Assembly (NCBI GenBank): GCA_025058835.1
Contig: JANXEI010000001.1
Location: forward strand, 190,561 to 254,560
Origin: Acidilobaceae archaeon
Lineage (GTDB): Archaea; Thermoproteota; Thermoprotei_A; Sulfolobales; Acidilobaceae
Reading direction: 5' to 3'
DNA: 64,000 bases
Part shown: positions 40,472 to 49,412 of the stretch, in pieces
Layout: each line of letters opens with the position of its first letter
How positions within the stretch are numbered: the first letter of the stretch is position 1
Made by a program: the position numbers and the translations under genes
The notes under the pieces: generated by a model
Told to the model about the DNA's origin: nothing
Database searches by the model: none
What the model saw: the letters and a program-made list of their open reading frames with translations, nothing else

Positions 40472-41509
40472 ATGGGCCTAGACCTAGGGGACATTGTGCC
40501 CGAGGCCGCGAGGAGGGAGGTAGAGATCTCGGCCCTCAAGGGCGAGGTAATAGCGCTCGATGCCTACAACGCCCTCTACCAGTTCCTGGCAGCCATCAGG
40601 CAGCCCGACGGTACCCCCCTCGTGGACAGGCAGGGGAGGATCACGAGCCACCTCAGCGGCCTCTTCTACAGGACCATAAGTCTGTTGGAGGAGGGAGTCA
40701 AGCCTGTGTACGTTTTCGACGGGAGGCCCCCGGAGATGAAGAGGAGGGAGCTAGAGGAGAGGCAGAGGAGGAAGGCTGAGGCAGAGAAGAGGTTGAAAGA
40801 GGCAAGGGAGGCTGGGCTAGTGGAGGAGGCAAGGAGGTCAGCTCAAGCTGCTGCCAGGCTCACCCAGAGCATGGCGACGGAGGCAAAGGAGCTGCTCAGC
40901 GCCATGGGTCTCCCGTGGGTGCAAGCTCCCGAGGAGGGGGAAGCTCAGGCCGCCTTCATGACTAGGAGAGACGCGTTCGCCGCGGGGAGCCAGGACTACG
41001 ACAGCCTGCTCTTCGGAGCAAGGAGGCTCGTGAGGAACCTCACTTTCAGCGGGAAGAGGAAGCTGCCAGGGAGGGAGGAATACGTAGAGGTGAAACCTGA
41101 GGTGATAGACGCTGAGGCCTTGCTCAGATCCCTAGGCGTGTCGAGGGAACAGCTGATAGCCGTAGGGGTCATTATGGGCACAGATTACAACGAGGGCATC
41201 AGGGGCTATGGGGCTCTCCGGGCGCTGAAGCACGTGAGGGCTGTGGGAGATCCTCTGAAGGCCCTCCAGCTCCTGGAGGGGTGGGAAGAGGATCCCCTTA
41301 AGGTCTACGAGTACTTCCTTAACCCCCCAGTTAACGAGGCCTACACCATAGCCTTCGGCGCTCCTGATGAGAGGAAGATAAAGGAGATCTTGATATACCA
41401 GCACGACTTCAGCCCAGACAGGGTGGAGAAGGGGCTGGAGAGGCTGAGGAAGGCGATGAAGGAGCTGAAGGGAAAGCAGAGGAGGCTCGACAGCTGGTTC
41501 CAAGGCTAA
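40472..41509 (+). CDS. fen: Flap endonuclease 1
   Basis: A 345-residue structure-specific nuclease that removes 5' flaps in Okazaki fragment maturation and base excision repair. N-region acidic residues are in IALDAYNALYQFL and VFDGRPPEMKRRE; the I-region carries APEEGEAQAAFM, SQDYDSLLFG and GVIMGTDYNEGIRGYG. The C-terminus has a PCNA-interacting box QRRLDSWF (336-343), so it should act on the sliding clamp. ATG at 40472 behind GGGGAGAGC. Confidence 0.97.
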   Translation: MGLDLGDIVPEAARREVEISALKGEVIALDAYNALYQFLAAIRQPDGTPLVDRQGRITSHLSGLFYRTISLLEEGVKPVYVFDGRPPEMKRRELEERQRRKAEAEKRLKEAREAGLVEEARRSAQAAARLTQSMATEAKELLSAMGLPWVQAPEEGEAQAAFMTRRDAFAAGSQDYDSLLFGARRLVRNLTFSGKRKLPGREEYVEVKPEVIDAEALLRSLGVSREQLIAVGVIMGTDYNEGIRGYGALRALKHVRAVGDPLKALQLLEGWEEDPLKVYEYFLNPPVNEAYTIAFGAPDERKIKEILIYQHDFSPDRVEKGLERLRKAMKELKGKQRRLDSWFQG

Positions 41510-41550
41510 CGAGCTGCGAGAACTCCCCAGCCCTGCCGGCCTCTCTGCAC

Positions 41551-41559
41551 AAATATAAG
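41551..41559 (+). promoter_or_regulatory. tRNA-Pro promoter
   Basis: AAATATAAG, 23-31 bases before the tRNA-Pro 5' end, in the short spacer after fen. Confidence 0.55.
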
Positions 41560-41581
41560 TATTGCTCCCCCCTCTCGCCGC

Positions 41582-41659
41582 GGGGCCGTCGTCTAGCCTG
41601 GCTAGGATGCCAGCCTGGGGCGCTGGTGGTCCCGGGTTCAAATCCCGGCGGCCCCACCA
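41582..41659 (+). tRNA. tRNA-Pro (anticodon GGG), CCA encoded
   Basis: Acceptor GGGGCCG/CGGCCCC, anticodon stem CCAGC/GCTGG around CTGGGGC, T-arm CCGGGTTCAAATCCCGG, discriminator A at 41656, then CCA at 41657-41659. It is the only one of the four tRNAs here with encoded CCA, which may be chance. The convergent nucleotidyltransferase gene runs antisense into its 3' half and stops in the complement of the T-loop. Confidence 0.97.
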
Positions 41660-42360
41660 GCCCTCTCAGCCAGCTCCTTCGGTATCTCCTCCAGATCTTT
41701 CGGCGAGTCCACGCTCCTCCAGTAGTAAGGCGGTGTGTCGAACTTGATGGCCCCCAACGCCCCCCTTGCTGCGAGGAGGGGGAACGTCGTTTTCTCTATA
41801 TCACCTTTCGCAGGCAGGTGCTCCAGCACCTCCCTCCTCATCGCGTAAACCCCAGCGTTTATCCAGTAGTCCCTCAGCACCGGCTTCTCCCTAAAGCTCC
41901 TAGCTAGGTTACCCTCCACCTCCACCACCCCGTAGGGGCTCTTGAGGGGGACGAGCGCTATGCTGGCAACGATGTTCCCCTCTAGAGATCGGAGGAGGGG
42001 CCTCGGGTCTATGTCTGTCACAATGTCCCCGTTCACCACTATGACGGGCTCCATCTTGCTGATTATGTGGGCAGCGTTCCTCAAGGCCCCTCCTGTGCCG
42101 AGGGGTTCGTCCTCAACTACGTAGGAGATGAAAACGCCGTGCTTTGCCCCGCTGCCCAGAGCTTCTATTATCTTCTCCTTTAGGTAGCCCACGAGCATGA
42201 AGATCTCAGAGATGCCATAGCTCCTGAGCCACTCTATCTGGTGCTCTATTATGGTCTTAGATCCTATGGGAAGGAGCACTTTTGGCGTCTCGAGGGTCAG
42301 GGGCCTCAGCCTCTTGCCGAAGCCCCCGGCTAACACGAGCGCCACTCCCACCCCTTTCAC
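41638..42360 (-). CDS. Sugar-phosphate nucleotidyltransferase
   Basis: A 240-residue enzyme that activates a sugar phosphate to an NDP-sugar. LAGGFGKRLRPLT (11-23) is the nucleotide-binding signature, followed by PKVLLPIGSKTIIEHQIE, EPLGTGGALRNA, VNGDIVTDID and INAGVYAMRREVLE. It lacks the C-terminal beta helix found in GlmU or AglF-type fusions, fitting a mannose-1- or glucose-1-phosphate type. The last six or so residues (GGAAGI) are encoded antisense to the tRNA-Pro acceptor and T-stem. Start at 42360; the giant membrane protein gene lies 54 bases upstream on the same strand, so a role in its glycosylation is conceivable but not shown. Confidence 0.9.
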   Translation of the reverse strand: MKGVGVALVLAGGFGKRLRPLTLETPKVLLPIGSKTIIEHQIEWLRSYGISEIFMLVGYLKEKIIEALGSGAKHGVFISYVVEDEPLGTGGALRNAAHIISKMEPVIVVNGDIVTDIDPRPLLRSLEGNIVASIALVPLKSPYGVVEVEGNLARSFREKPVLRDYWINAGVYAMRREVLEHLPAKGDIEKTTFPLLAARGALGAIKFDTPPYYWRSVDSPKDLEEIPKELAERAGGAAGI

Positions 42361-42414
42361 CAGGAGGGGGAGGACTTCGAAGATAATTAAGCATGAAAAG
42401 AGGAGGTTGGGGGG

Positions 42415-45400
42415 CTACCTCCTCCTCCTTAGCACCAGGGCCGCCCCCACGAGGGCTGCGAGGAGCGCTGCGAGGAGGAGCGGGAGGAGGGGCACTCCCC
42501 CGACAGAGGGCAGGCTTGCCAGAGGGTCTGCGCCGCTGGCCGCTATGGCGAATATGGGGTCTCCTGGCGTGAGCGTGAGGATCACCTTGCCCTCCATAGC
42601 GGTGAAGGGCACCTCCTTGTACTTGCGCTCATTAGCGTCGTACTTGTAGACCTTGAGCTCCCGGTAGCCCCCTATGCCCAGCTTGGAGAGCTCCACCTCC
42701 ACGTTCACGCTCCCAGCACCAGCCCACAGGACGTCTATGGCAAGGAACTTGACCCTCTCTCCCTCCACGGGGGTGCTCACGGGGTTCTGGTCCATGAGGC
42801 TAACCCGCAAGCGGTAGTCTCCATCTGAGCTTGCCGTCACGCCCTGGGCTACCTCGGTCCTCCCGCTCCCCTCAACGTACTTCACCTCCTGCTTCACGCT
42901 CCTCAAGGCAACGGTGCCCTGGAACTCCTTGGGCAGCAGCACGCCCACCACGACCATCTCTCCTGACCTCAGCTCGCCGCTCCTCAGCAAGTAGCCCTGC
43001 GAGGTTGCCACGTACCTCTGGGGCTCTGCCTTGTCTATGATGACCTGGAGCAGGGAGGCTCCGCTCACCCTTATGCCCTGCTCACCTATCTCCACAGGCG
43101 CGTCGCTGATCACGAGCATGTTGCCGGCCCTTGCCTCGTAGAGCCTGGGCGGGCGATCCAGCAGGACCCTTTCAGCTGTCATGCCTCCTCTCCAGCTGGC
43201 AACGACGTCCACAATGGCTCCCTTCGCTGCTGGACCAGATCTGAGCTCCACTGTAGCGCTGCCCCTTGCAGGCACCCTCACCTCCTTGGGGGAGAACTGG
43301 AGGCCTGGGGCAACTGCAGAGACGGTGACCTGCGCATCCTCATCGCCTATGTTGTGTAGGGTTACCGCGATCCTAGCCCCAGCCTCGCTGCTCTCAGCAT
43401 AGAGGTCCGTGTTCCTCATGACGATTAGAGCTGGCAGCCTGCTGGCTAGCTCCCCCCTGCTCAGCTGCTCTGCAGCCCTCAGCCTGGCGGAGGAGCGGGA
43501 GATCAGTCCCTTGAAGCTCTCCATGACGACAGGGCTTGGCTCCCACTCGGGATGAGCGACCAGGAAGCTCACCAACTCTGCCATCTGCAGGTAATCGTGG
43601 TAGTGCTCGCTCTGGATTATCGAGAGGTTGGCTGAGGCAGCTCCCCTGCTGCGGGCAACGAGCCTCCTGAGCTGCAGATCTGTGGAGTCCATGAGCGTCA
43701 GCAGCTCCTCGATCTCCTCTGCCCTGAAGGAGTTGCTCTTCATGCTCCCCAGCAAAGATGAGCCCAACCTCTCCATCCTGTTGGCAGCAGTGCTCAACTC
43801 CCCTCCAGCGGAGAGGCCGAGGCCTTCGAGGCCCTCGGCCCAGGCAGCGCTGGGCCTTATGGGCACGCTGGCAGTAACGAAGAAGGTGATCGCGGGCAGG
43901 AAGAGCTGGAGGGTGAGGGCAGAGGAGGTCAAGAGATCTGGCTGGGATCTCACCATCATGTTCTTGAAGCCTGGGAGCCAGAGGAACTTAACGGCAAAGT
44001 TGGCAGTCATCATGGCAACCAGGGCAATGTAGAGCTTGGGTACCACGTCCGAGAGCCCTACCGTCACGAGCCTGTCTTTCACCATAACCTTGACGGGCAT
44101 GTTCAGGAACTCAAGCAGCTTGGTGTACAAGACGTGATCAAAGGCCATGGAGGTCTTCATCAACTTGCCAATGATTCCATCTAGCCCGCGAATTATGGAG
44201 AGGGCCAACGATGTAATGGTCTCTGCTAGCATGTAACTGTCAGCGGTCTTGAAGAAGGTCTCCTCTATGGGCTCTGCGGCTGAGGCAGAGACAAGGACAC
44301 CGTGCCTCTCTTGCCTTGTGAGCCAGAACTCCTCAGGGCTCTTGTCCCTCAGGACTCCGAAGAGCTCTCCCATAGCTTGCTCGAAGGAAGGCATCCGCCA
44401 GGAGAACTCGAGGTACTTCCTAAACATCATTACGAACGTAGCAGGGCTTGCGGCAGCGGCTATCTGCTTCCAGGGGACCTCGGGGACCTTCAACATGATC
44501 TCTCCCAGCAGGACTGCGCTCATCAGGAGGTTGAACAGGAAGTTCAACAAGTGGGCTACGAAGTAGGAGATTAGCAGGAAAAGCACCTCGAAGATGGCCT
44601 CTGAAACTCTGTCTGCAGTGAAGATCGCTACTGCAAACCTTGTCACCTTGAAGATCAAGGCGACCAAGGCCTGGGCTGTGACCTCATCTATGCCCGGTAT
44701 AGCCTCCTTGATCGTGTTCAGCACCAAGTTGTTCCCAAAGAGGCCGAGGATGGTAATGGCGCTCCCCTCTGTCACCAGCGCGCCTATCTTAATGGCTGAG
44801 AGTATCTGGGTGGTGCGCTCGGAGAAGGTGTTTTTGGTGGAGTACTTGACGAAGAGGTTCTGCTTGTTCCAGAACTTCTTGAAGCTGAAGAGGCCCTTGA
44901 AGGTCTCCAGCACTGCCAGCAAGGACACCAGCCTCGAGACAGCCAGCGCCGAGCCGCTGGTGTACTTGAAAGTCCTGATTGCCTCTGCCTGGAGGATCAC
45001 GAACTTGGTCAGCTTGCTCCAATAGTTGTTGGGGTTGTCTAGCGCAGAGAGGCTGAAGTTAAACCTGGGATCGTTGAAGTTCATGATCCTCTTCAAGGTC
45101 TCGAGCTCCGACCCCTCTTGCCCCAAGCTCGGGAGGAAGACTTGAGGCCTGAGAGTTACAACGCCCCTCTCCATTGCCCTCAAGACGTCGCTCAAGCCCG
45201 TGTCGCCCATCACCTGGCCGGCGAACAGCGATGCGACCGACCTAGCTAAGCTCGTGAGGAGGGCCTGATCTGCCAGCACCCTAGCGTACTTGATGTCCTC
45301 CCCTCTGAGTATCTGGGCATAGCTCTCGTACTTCCTGAGGAGGTCTGCTGGCACGTAGAACTTAGCGCTGATTACCTTGAGCCCCTCCCCCCTGACCTCG

Positions 45401-48183
45401 GGCACCTCTATGGTGATCCCTGCATCCCTCACCCTCAACTCGAAGTAATTACCGGAGGGGAGCCTGAGGGTGACGTTGTAGGCCAGCCTGTACCTGCCTG
45501 GCTCGATGTCCTCCAAGGGTTTCAAAATCGGGTCAAGCTCGTCTCCCCCAAAGTAGCCCAACCTCTTCACTCTCTTCCCTTTTTCGTCCAGCAGGTCCAC
45601 ATACATGCTGAGCACGCTAGAGGAGGTCAGGGGTTGTTCCAGGCTAGCCCTGGCGAGCTCTCGCGTCGTCATCCTCTTCAGCACGTTCTCCTGCCAAGGA
45701 TCGTCTGGCAGGGGTATCTTCAGGTCCCTCGGATAGAGGGCGAGGTAATGACCGCTCACATAGACCGGCAGCCCGACAGTGGCCTTCTCCCCCCTGCTGT
45801 CCGTAGCGTTAACGAGGAGCAACACTTGCTTGACGTGCCTTCCGAAGACGTTGGCTATCTGTGAGAAGGAGGGCAAAACTACCTTCGCAAAGCCGTTGCC
45901 CGCCTCGTCCAGCTTCACCTCCGCTGGGATCACCTTCACTGCAATCCTGTTCCGAGACAGGAGCTCTGCGCTGAGCTTCACGCTAGCCCCGCCAGCCCTG
46001 GGGCCGTAAGCAGAGATCGTGAGAGTTATGTTCTCGCCGGCAAAGGCGAGTCCCTGGGAGGGCATCAAGAAGAGCGAGGGCCTCTCCTCTAGCTGCCCCG
46101 CCTCTCTGCCTTCTCCTCTCTCATATATGCGATGGTATAGTTCTCGGAGGAATTCTCTCCGCCATACTCCTACGTCAGACCAGCTATAGGATTCTGTTCT
46201 AAAACGCGTGTAACTGCCATCAGTGTATACTATGACTTCAGCGATCACCGTGGTATTCGTGACAATATCACGGACGGGGACACGCGCCGAATAGATCCTA
46301 CCGCCTATAAACTGTATTTCTTCCACATCTACACTGTATCTCCAACCGTGTCTCTCAGTTCTACTCTCTCCCAGCAACGGGTAGAATTCGACGGCCTTTG
46401 AGAGGCTTAGCAGGCTAAGCTCGATGGTATTGGTACTTCTCTGGTTCTCACGCCTATCTCGCGGTAAAATAAATTCCGCCTCATTGTAATGACTGATACT
46501 ACCACATATCGACTTAATATTCTCACGGTCGTCAGCGTATTCTTCACCGTTTAGCAAATGAAGATTGTAATAGCGGCAATCCATACTTGATAATACTACT
46601 CTCACTTTCCGTCTGTCTATCTCAGATTCTTCTTCCCTTTCCGTCATTCTGTAATCATTCATTATGATCAGACCGTTAGGGGGTAGGGGATTCAGGAGGA
46701 GCCCGCCAATGCTTACCTCGCCCTCTCCCCGGGCGTGACTGCTATATCGGTTCTCTTGGAAACCTAGGTCCTCTCTGATAACAAAATGTACCGCTTTACT
46801 ATAATATAAGTAATCGTCAGTGGTGCTGACCTTGAGCCTGTAAGAGCCGTAGTCTCCCTCACCGCTCTCCTTGACCCTTATGCTCATTGTCCTTTCACTC
46901 TCGAACTCGATTATGCGAGGGTTGAGGGGACGTTGGTCCTCCCTATAACCGTGTGCTACAACGTTCAGCCCCCCGTACCTATCTTGACCTACCGTTACCG
47001 TCAGCTGAAGCGTGAGAAGAGTTCCCCCCCTAGCGTCGCTCACCTTCACCTTGACCTTTACCTGTCCCGTTGCCTTGGGCTCTAAGTACAACCCTACGAG
47101 AGAACTAGCGAGGAGAGCTCTGGGACTCCCGGGATAGACGTCCACCTCCTTCAAGAGCTTCTTGCTCCCCTCCCCCTCGGGGGCTAAGATCCTAGTAGTG
47201 AAGTTCGTGCAGAATTTGAAAAGTCCCCTAGACAGTTTCCCTTCGGCCTCCTCCTTGACCCTGCCTACGTCCTCCAGTGTCCGCACGCCGGGGCTATATC
47301 TGAGGAGGTAGTAGCCACATGGAGCAGGGAGTCTCTGGGACCTTATCACCGCATCAGTCAGATAGGCTGGGCCCTCCACCTCCCACTCCAGGCGTAAGGA
47401 AGAGGCCAGCGGGTCTTCCCTCAGAGCCCTCTCGAAGATCCCCTTTAGCTCAGGGTTGACCGCAACCCTGCTGTCCTTCAGGAGAACGCGAAGGACGTCG
47501 AGGGGACTGATCTCCCTTAGACCCAACACAAAGTACACGCCCTCTCCCCGGGGCAAGGTGAAGGAGGAGAGGTTCGTGAGCTGGAGGTAGGAGTAGAGGT
47601 ACTCCGGGTTGTCGTAGAAGAAAGGCCTCGTCAGCTCGAAGTTATAGTCGTATGTATCCGCCACAGAGTCTGAGCGCCGGATGGGTTCTATGCTTGAGTA
47701 TGAGATGTAGGTCCCTACACCGAATATGCCTGGGGAGATGTAGGTCCCTCCAGTGAAAAGGAGTTGAGTCCAGGAGAAGGTCGCGCTTACAGAAAGCGAC
47801 CTGACCTCGCGCGTGGTCCCTCTAGGCCCTTGCACTTCCACATAAAAAGAGAAGTCCAGAGGTCCCAGTTTAAGCTCTCCGCTCTGGACCTTCTTCAGGT
47901 ACTCTCCGAACTTCATGCTTCGCACTATGCGTGTCCTGCTCTCTGGGTCAAACTGCTCTACCCGGATCTCCGGCTCCTCGTATTTGCCGATCACAGGATA
48001 GTCCACTCCTCGGTAAGGGAAGAAGGCGTTGATGACCAAGTTGGAGATTAGCCATTTCCTCAACTGCTCCTGCGGAGAGGGCATGGCCTCTGCAACGTAT
48101 GGCAAGGCAGTGGGGAGGAGGATGAGGAGTACTAGGAGTGAAGATATGAAGAGCCTTAGTAAGGCCAATATCAACACCGTCAT
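42415..48183 (-). CDS. Giant secreted/membrane protein of unknown function (1922 residues)
   Basis: The largest gene here; I recognise no family. The N-terminus has a signal peptide or anchor (residues 3-30). Residues 35-1000 are mostly beta-rich modules, predicted outside the cell, with Asn-X-Ser/Thr sites. A middle block (about 1130-1450) holds several hydrophobic helices (for example EVLFLLISYFVAHLLNFLFN and LYIALVAMMTANFAVKF), so the chain likely crosses the membrane several times. A helical segment follows (about 1480-1600), then CARDB-like beta domains (for example IAVTLHNIGDEDAQVTVSA). It ends in a Pro/Gly stretch, one hydrophobic helix and RRRR. Residues about 441-681 lie in DNA of clearly lower GC. 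Frame is open throughout, so it looks intact. Confidence 0.85.
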   Translation of the reverse strand: MTVLILALLRLFISSLLVLLILLPTALPYVAEAMPSPQEQLRKWLISNLVINAFFPYRGVDYPVIGKYEEPEIRVEQFDPESRTRIVRSMKFGEYLKKVQSGELKLGPLDFSFYVEVQGPRGTTREVRSLSVSATFSWTQLLFTGGTYISPGIFGVGTYISYSSIEPIRRSDSVADTYDYNFELTRPFFYDNPEYLYSYLQLTNLSSFTLPRGEGVYFVLGLREISPLDVLRVLLKDSRVAVNPELKGIFERALREDPLASSLRLEWEVEGPAYLTDAVIRSQRLPAPCGYYLLRYSPGVRTLEDVGRVKEEAEGKLSRGLFKFCTNFTTRILAPEGEGSKKLLKEVDVYPGSPRALLASSLVGLYLEPKATGQVKVKVKVSDARGGTLLTLQLTVTVGQDRYGGLNVVAHGYREDQRPLNPRIIEFESERTMSIRVKESGEGDYGSYRLKVSTTDDYLYYSKAVHFVIREDLGFQENRYSSHARGEGEVSIGGLLLNPLPPNGLIIMNDYRMTEREEESEIDRRKVRVVLSSMDCRYYNLHLLNGEEYADDRENIKSICGSISHYNEAEFILPRDRRENQRSTNTIELSLLSLSKAVEFYPLLGESRTERHGWRYSVDVEEIQFIGGRIYSARVPVRDIVTNTTVIAEVIVYTDGSYTRFRTESYSWSDVGVWRREFLRELYHRIYERGEGREAGQLEERPSLFLMPSQGLAFAGENITLTISAYGPRAGGASVKLSAELLSRNRIAVKVIPAEVKLDEAGNGFAKVVLPSFSQIANVFGRHVKQVLLLVNATDSRGEKATVGLPVYVSGHYLALYPRDLKIPLPDDPWQENVLKRMTTRELARASLEQPLTSSSVLSMYVDLLDEKGKRVKRLGYFGGDELDPILKPLEDIEPGRYRLAYNVTLRLPSGNYFELRVRDAGITIEVPEVRGEGLKVISAKFYVPADLLRKYESYAQILRGEDIKYARVLADQALLTSLARSVASLFAGQVMGDTGLSDVLRAMERGVVTLRPQVFLPSLGQEGSELETLKRIMNFNDPRFNFSLSALDNPNNYWSKLTKFVILQAEAIRTFKYTSGSALAVSRLVSLLAVLETFKGLFSFKKFWNKQNLFVKYSTKNTFSERTTQILSAIKIGALVTEGSAITILGLFGNNLVLNTIKEAIPGIDEVTAQALVALIFKVTRFAVAIFTADRVSEAIFEVLFLLISYFVAHLLNFLFNLLMSAVLLGEIMLKVPEVPWKQIAAAASPATFVMMFRKYLEFSWRMPSFEQAMGELFGVLRDKSPEEFWLTRQERHGVLVSASAAEPIEETFFKTADSYMLAETITSLALSIIRGLDGIIGKLMKTSMAFDHVLYTKLLEFLNMPVKVMVKDRLVTVGLSDVVPKLYIALVAMMTANFAVKFLWLPGFKNMMVRSQPDLLTSSALTLQLFLPAITFFVTASVPIRPSAAWAEGLEGLGLSAGGELSTAANRMERLGSSLLGSMKSNSFRAEEIEELLTLMDSTDLQLRRLVARSRGAASANLSIIQSEHYHDYLQMAELVSFLVAHPEWEPSPVVMESFKGLISRSSARLRAAEQLSRGELASRLPALIVMRNTDLYAESSEAGARIAVTLHNIGDEDAQVTVSAVAPGLQFSPKEVRVPARGSATVELRSGPAAKGAIVDVVASWRGGMTAERVLLDRPPRLYEARAGNMLVISDAPVEIGEQGIRVSGASLLQVIIDKAEPQRYVATSQGYLLRSGELRSGEMVVVGVLLPKEFQGTVALRSVKQEVKYVEGSGRTEVAQGVTASSDGDYRLRVSLMDQNPVSTPVEGERVKFLAIDVLWAGAGSVNVEVELSKLGIGGYRELKVYKYDANERKYKEVPFTAMEGKVILTLTPGDPIFAIAASGADPLASLPSVGGVPLLPLLLAALLAALVGAALVLRRRR
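46110..46870. other. AT-rich segment inside the giant gene
   Basis: Hand counts of 60-base lines give 37-50 percent GC from about 46141 to 46860 (for example 22 of 60 at 46561-46620) against roughly 55-60 percent around it. Arginine codons switch from mostly AGG to CGT, CGC, CGG and CGA. The reading frame is unbroken. This suggests a segment acquired from another source or evolving under different selection. Confidence 0.7.
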
Positions 48184-48275
48184 ACAGCGTATTAGGTTAT
48201 TATACCTTACGGTCGATTAGCTAGAGCTCCGAAGAATTTCTTAGGGTTTCGACAGCAGCAACCTCTGGAGCTAGA

Positions 48276-49412
48276 GTGAGGAGGAACGTAGCTAGTCTCA
48301 TGGTATACAACCTGTTCAGGGGGTTCTCCACGGGAGGATACATGGCCCTCTTCTCAGCCTACATGGCAAGGCAGGGCTTCAGCGTGAGCGAGATAGGGCT
48401 AGCTGTGTCCCTCTCCGGCATAGCCAGCGCCATAGCTTCTCCCCTCGTGGGCTACCTGCTCGAGGTGAGGAGCAGCAAGTCCATATCGGTGCTCACGGGC
48501 CTTATGCTCTTCGCCTCCCTCCTCCTCATGCTCCCCCGGCCCTCCCTCCCTCTCATGACCCTCAGCTACTCCCTCTTCCTCATCTCCTTCTTCTTCAGCC
48601 AGCCCGCCAGGATGACCTACATAGCTAGGAACGTGGAGAGGGAAAAGCTGGGGAGCGCCGTAGGCCTAACCGCTTCTGCCTTCACAGCTGCCAGAACGGC
48701 AGGGCCTCCGGTTGCGGGTTACATAGCTGTTAGCTACGGCTACGGGAGCTCCTTCTCCCTCCTTGCCCTCTCTGCCCTGCTGGGCGCCCTCCTGTTCCAG
48801 CTCACCTCCACAGAGGACAAGGTGGAGCGGAGGGGCTCCTACGGCATCCTGGACTCTTACAAGAACACCGTCAAGCCCCCGAGGGAGGTCCTCCCGTTCT
48901 ACCTCTTCGTGGTGCTCGATCGGGCGGGGTGGATGCTCTGGTTCCCTATGTTGAGCGCCTACCTGGTCCTGGCAGGCCTGGACGAGGCCGTCATTGGGGC
49001 CCTCTATGCTGGGGCTAACCTGGTGGAGGCAGTGGCTATGCCCCTCACGGGAAAGGTAGTGGACAGACTCGGGGCTGCCTTCGCGCTGGCGGCCTCTGAG
49101 CTCCTCGCCGCTTCAGCAGCCATCTCCCTTGCCCTGGGAGTGCTCGGGGCCCCCCTGTCCTTCCTCCTCATGGGCTTAAGCCTCTCCTTCTGGATACCCG
49201 GCTACAACGTTTACGTTGCCAGGAGATATGCAAGGATGGGAGAGGTCTTTGCCTCTACCAACGCAATGCGGAGCCTGGCAGGGGCGCCCTCCTCGTATGT
49301 GGGCGGAGTGCTCTATAATGCCGTTGCCCCCGCGGCCCCGCTCCTCCTCTCCTCCCTCATGCTGGTGGCTGCCGCGGCGCTGATGCTGAACATGAGGGAG
49401 AACAACTCTTAA
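48276..49412 (+). CDS. MFS transporter
   Basis: A 378-residue major facilitator with about twelve hydrophobic helices. The loop between helices 2 and 3 reads GYLLEVRSSKS and its second-half equivalent GKVVDRLGAAF keeps the GxxxDRxG pattern. The first helix region (FRGFSTGGYMALFSAYM) and PARMTYIARNVEREKLGSAVGL resemble archaeal drug or sugar efflux members. The substrate is unknown. GTG at 48276 is the start. Divergent from the giant membrane protein gene over 92 bases. Confidence 0.87.
   Translation: MRRNVASLMVYNLFRGFSTGGYMALFSAYMARQGFSVSEIGLAVSLSGIASAIASPLVGYLLEVRSSKSISVLTGLMLFASLLLMLPRPSLPLMTLSYSLFLISFFFSQPARMTYIARNVEREKLGSAVGLTASAFTAARTAGPPVAGYIAVSYGYGSSFSLLALSALLGALLFQLTSTEDKVERRGSYGILDSYKNTVKPPREVLPFYLFVVLDRAGWMLWFPMLSAYLVLAGLDEAVIGALYAGANLVEAVAMPLTGKVVDRLGAAFALAASELLAASAAISLALGVLGAPLSFLLMGLSLSFWIPGYNVYVARRYARMGEVFASTNAMRSLAGAPSSYVGGVLYNAVAPAAPLLLSSLMLVAAAALMLNMRENNS

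Follow-up and report, generated by a model that had tools for sequence, protein, structure and literature searches.

A candidate hypervariable domain with unselected-looking codons in a giant predicted surface protein of an Acidilobaceae archaeon

The low-GC, codon-anomalous block within the giant gene described here is best explained, with slightly better than even confidence, as a chronically hypervariable extracellular module (approximately residues 457-698, with its core at 509-697) lying between conserved parts of a giant surface protein. Under this explanation, the amino-acid sequence of the domain would turn over, in each lineage, faster than host codon preference can be restored, so that its codons would remain like those of unselected DNA, approximately at the genome's own mutational composition; in a GC-rich, AGG-using host such a composition would show as a "foreign" block of low GC. 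The change would be driven by rapid substitution in situ and/or by exchange of alleles within the population, and turnover may proceed by point change, by allelic exchange or by both. Selection would be diversifying and would act on an exposed binding surface facing viruses, other cells or partners. That viral exposure lies behind the variability is our guess, made because of the surface location and by analogy with other archaeal systems (PMC8416519, PMC4535781).

The gene was found in a window of 64,000 nucleotides, the whole stretch of DNA analysed, from a metagenome-assembled genome (G000; 1.19 Mb in 29 contigs, 92.65% complete) that was assigned to the genus of a genome matching "Desulfurococcaceae archaeon isolate Bin S29". 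It lies at 42415..48183 on the minus strand, reading from 48183 to 42415, and its open reading frame translates to 1922 aa. The predicted order of parts is an N-terminal signal or transmembrane helix, a long ectodomain, a helical middle, and a C-terminal transmembrane helix followed by RRRR, suggesting a membrane-anchored archaeal cell-surface protein. The N-terminal hydrophobic signal/anchor segment (residues 1-33; 48085..48183, minus strand) was recognized in the sequence and is a helix in the structural model, and the C-terminal helix with its basic tail (residues 1890-1922; 42418..42516, minus strand) is laid out alike in homologues. Searches of Pfam and NCBIfam, and a sequence search of the PDB, returned nothing above cut-off for the protein. 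A putative Ig/macroglobulin-like beta domain with host-like codons (approximately residues 700-810; 45754..46086, minus strand) abuts the variable domain on its C-terminal side; it was modelled with a local pLDDT of approximately 70-88 and matched Fab and complement C4/C5 domains in Foldseek (E approximately 1e-5), with low overall TM-scores. Over the block itself, the AlphaFold model has a pLDDT below 35, and its structure was set aside for that low confidence. By eye, the listed ORFs next to the giant gene resemble a sugar nucleotidyltransferase, FEN1 and an MFS transporter, and an island of Ig-domain genes is not apparent.

The original prediction of a low-GC block with its frame kept was confirmed by measurement: windows of 250 bases over approximately 46125-47000 have a GC of 0.43-0.49 vs. 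0.55-0.61 around them, residues 441-681 have a GC of 0.466 vs. 0.580 in the remaining gene, and the block is open throughout. The GC3 of these residues is 0.49, whereas 0.76 is expected from their amino acids and 0.76 is found in the remaining gene; the maximal GC3-deficit segment scored 44.1, and the highest score among 1000 simulations was 12.7. Likelihood segmentation of the gene placed the anomaly at residues 457-698 (46090..46815, minus strand; GC 0.45-0.47), where synonymous usage is nearly uniform, with an LLR of 94.5 vs. a null maximum of 11.7. The predicted shift in arginine codons from AGG to CGN was partly right: CGN accounts for 46% vs. 13-15% in the background and AGG drops to 15% vs. 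69%, but the commonest codon is AGA (in residues 441-681, AGA 10, CGT 5, AGG 4, CGA 3, CGG 3 and CGC 1). The right edge of the block is sharp (codons 692-698) and the left one is gradual. Codon usage is mildly atypical across residues 1-456 as well (mean deviation -0.10 vs. +0.06 for residues 699-1922), a feature that suits mosaicism and counts against the hypervariability explanation. A compensated frameshift was rejected, as the alternative frames of the block contain 10-25 stops. Across the 355 ORFs tested (approximately 464 kb of genome), the block was the top codon outlier. The second was a separate gene, a restriction-modification type N6 DNA-methylase of 1,053 aa (L034 14180-17341; G000 contig C11, approximately 74180-77341), whose residues 443-1051 are atypical and might fit a laterally exchanged specificity region.

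Five homologues were detected in Thermoproteota, comprising four full-length proteins and a distant one of 1,978 aa (G110). The full-length proteins come from a genome of the same genus (G002), two of the same order (G042 and G049, the latter matching Desulfurococcaceae archaeon AG1), and one of another class (G414, here CEN, matching Centralia_MAG_457). Homologues share a common layout of N-terminal hydrophobic segment, beta-rich ectodomain, helical middle, and C-terminal transmembrane helix with basic tail. Outside residues 441-697, pairwise identity among full-length homologues is 25-32%, and the tree of the flanks is nearly a star with weak support. The family is patchy, with four full-length members and one distant homologue across 214 genomes from the order, which argues against the giant protein being an essential S-layer protein. 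The closest relative examined (G003, with neighbouring genes 75-86% identical) lacks the giant gene both at the locus and in the family search. At that locus (L129 1354-10073) the gap between the MFS and FEN1 genes is 45 bp; in the window (41509-48276) the nucleotidyltransferase and the giant gene lie between them, and the G003 nucleotidyltransferase sits at the opposite end of the cluster. Therefore, a gain, loss or rearrangement has affected the nucleotidyltransferase/giant gene segment since the two lineages diverged. Additionally, contig C22 of G002 carries, near its start (L087, approximately 422-830), part of another copy of the C-terminal region of the giant protein, in which an in-frame TAG is reported; this is likely a decayed paralogue. 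The G042 gene (L011, contig C1, 618500-632000) lies where GC is 44-54%, within a genome mostly of 33-45% GC, which suggests a compositionally distinct region.

The hypervariable domain proper, residues 509-697 (46093..46659, minus strand), shows no similarity that could be detected in any pairing of the five proteins compared (G000, G002, G042, G049 and CEN), and leave-one-out profiles of this region, built from four members and run against the fifth, scored no better than shuffles for every member. The expectation that a surface protein, here a predicted one, would contain a domain varying far more than the sequence around it was therefore borne out: the flanks of the closest four homologues align at 25-30% identity, and conservation of the segment at the level of those flanks was not seen. 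Directly before the domain lies a conserved motif, E-x-x-I-G-G-x-L-x-N-P-x-P-P (residues 489-502; 46678..46719, minus strand); as this motif is inside the codon-anomalous block, the block was not wholly swapped for unrelated sequence. In all five proteins the domain follows this motif (xIGGxLxNPxPPxG) at a fixed position, with a size of 180-234 residues and an open frame. Of the 27 cysteines in the five proteins, 18 lie in the variable domain, which makes up 10.6% of residues (p=5e-12); those of the host are residues 536 and 560. The extracellular module is probably disulphide-bonded. The shared position, similar size and retained cysteines point to one homologous domain whose sequence similarity has been lost; alternatively, the variable domains may be unrelated replacements at one position. 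In the distant G110 (L069 residues 588-721), eight cysteines occur in a short stretch at approximately the position of the variable domain.

The codon anomaly was also sought blindly in each gene, taking the best anomalous segment by likelihood (null maxima 9.8-14.6). In host coordinates, this returned 457-698 for G000, 506-697 for G002 (LLR 31.4), 415-736 for G042 (36.1) and, marginally, 638-735 for G049 (10.2), with the right edges of G000 and G002 coinciding at residues 697-698. No significant segment was returned for CEN or the distant G110; this, like the marginal value for G049, counts against the hypervariability explanation. When the four other homologues were pooled, CGN made up 15 of 34 arginine codons in the domain vs. 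33 of 238 elsewhere (p=1e-4). Using non-coding base composition estimated from short gaps between genes, the intergenic-composition model outperformed host codon usage for the domain in five of five genomes, by wide margins in G000 and G002 and by narrow ones in G049, G042 and CEN, whereas host codon usage won in all 15 control segments. For G000, G002 and G042, the domain codons were fitted better by the genome's own non-coding composition than by any other host tested, and the coding frame resembled host usage no more closely than the five non-coding frames did together; for the G049 domain, one other host fitted slightly better than its own non-coding composition. The fitted domain GC of G042 (0.41) lies above its intergenic GC (0.28) and the 95% interval for G000 (0.41-0.51) lies just below its intergenic 0.53, both of which count against the hypervariability explanation; a fitted GC far above intergenic GC holds for G042 only. 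Usage of two archaeal viruses, SIRV1 and APOV1, fitted the block worse than uniform usage and was rejected as a codon source. Because non-coding composition fits better than the host, other hosts or these viruses, the domain codons look unselected rather than borrowed. A general rule that poorly conserved sites have poor codons was also rejected, failing outside the domain; since such sites elsewhere keep host codons, turnover of the domain must be recent.

Import of a foreign domain by recombination, as originally predicted, was not upheld, given that the anomaly recurs in other lineages, the genome's own non-coding composition fits, positional homology and cysteines are retained, and viral, phage and plasmid collections yielded no donor. 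A replacement of the segment in the host lineage, from a lower-GC organism or virus and through a homologous or unrelated gene, is accordingly judged unlikely, though it has several features in its favour: the sharp right edge, the compactness of the block within an otherwise host-like gene, the near-zero similarity of the domain to its homologues, a graded mosaic of three codon classes, and the precedent of archaeal surface genes that recombine in this manner (VARTIG, PMC8416519; Haloquadratum islands, PMC4535781). These have to be set against a conserved motif and cysteine pattern within the block, codon usage unlike that of four other hosts and the two viruses, and the anomaly of the same domain in other lineages, where a single foreign import would have to have recurred independently. 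Viral, phage and plasmid collections gave no match to the block, the whole protein or the family, and neither a second copy nor silent cassettes were found in the 92.65%-complete genome. Repeats flanking the block are short and chance-like. The block also lacks the template repeat expected of a diversity-generating retroelement target, as far as the 92.65%-complete host genome shows: a search of it (DNA 45500-47500 and protein residues 371-760, E<=10) recovered the gene itself and nothing else.

A weakly constrained spacer, drifting freely under relaxed codon selection and needing neither an arms race nor any special mechanism, would account for the lack of conserved sequence, the low pLDDT and the codons at non-coding composition; it is nevertheless quite improbable, because the frame is open in all members, the size stays at approximately 180-234 residues, cysteines are concentrated there, and other poorly conserved parts retain host codons. 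Selection for non-preferred codons that slow translation during export and folding of a disulphide domain agrees with the recurrence of the anomaly in this domain across several homologues, but is very improbable, as the G042 domain is nearer to genome-typical codons than its remaining gene, usage is nearly uniform rather than rich in rare codons, and CEN shows nothing. We give hardly any credence to an assembly chimera of strains; an assembly of 29 contigs at 92.65% completeness and the poor assembly of hypervariable loci would permit one, but the block is in frame and correctly placed, the motif and the putative Ig-like domain stand where expected, and independent assemblies carry similar anomalies.

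Among known systems, VARTIG of Thermococcales (arCOG07710; PMC8416519) comes closest, but the giant protein is not a member, being set apart by layout and motif. Both are large archaeal surface proteins, predicted as such here, with Ig-type domains (putative in the giant protein), in which one segment of approximately 200 aa, with cysteines inside, is far more variable than the remainder. VARTIG proteins, for which a conflict or self/nonself role has been proposed, have a variable C-terminal Ig domain and a shuffled multi-gene island with evidence of inter-species exchange, and in their islands the Ig-domain genes lie next to an RNase III homologue (PMC8416519). In contrast, the variable domain here is internal (509-697 of 1922), the gene appears to stand alone, and the exchange evidence belongs to VARTIG. 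The VARTIG end motif D[ND]NxxxG[GD] (DNNxxxGG) is absent from the giant protein, whose C-terminus is ...LAALVGAALVLRRRR, a transmembrane helix and RRRR. Outside Thermococcales, PMC8416519 describes no archaeal Ig domain that is similarly variable. In the cell-wall island of Haloquadratum walsbyi (PMC4535781), S-layer and surface glycoprotein genes are similarly diversified, with short exchanges (approximately 250 bp) within an S-layer gene, but those alleles are approximately 85% similar with detected breakpoints, whereas the giant-protein domain is unalignable. Atypically low GC also marks variable surface-related DNA in metagenomic islands of Salinibacter ruber (PMC2800850); there, entire gene islands are involved that have a low coding density and contain pseudogenes, unlike the single in-frame domain of a host-like gene seen here.

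Overall, a "foreign-looking" low-GC block can mark fast turnover instead of import, and the two may be distinguished by asking whether non-coding-like composition, or host or donor usage, is the better fit to the codons. This test is cheap and could reveal other conflict-driven domains in genomes without close relatives. For archaea outside Thermococcales, the results point to a previously undescribed family of giant surface proteins with a position-fixed hypervariable domain. It is improbable that a single internal domain of this giant Thermoproteota family is subject to dedicated diversification, whether by targeted mutation or by shuffling from a pool in the community; if it were, archaea outside Thermococcales would have a recognition surface under rapid renewal, and its missing codon bias would tell how old that surface is.
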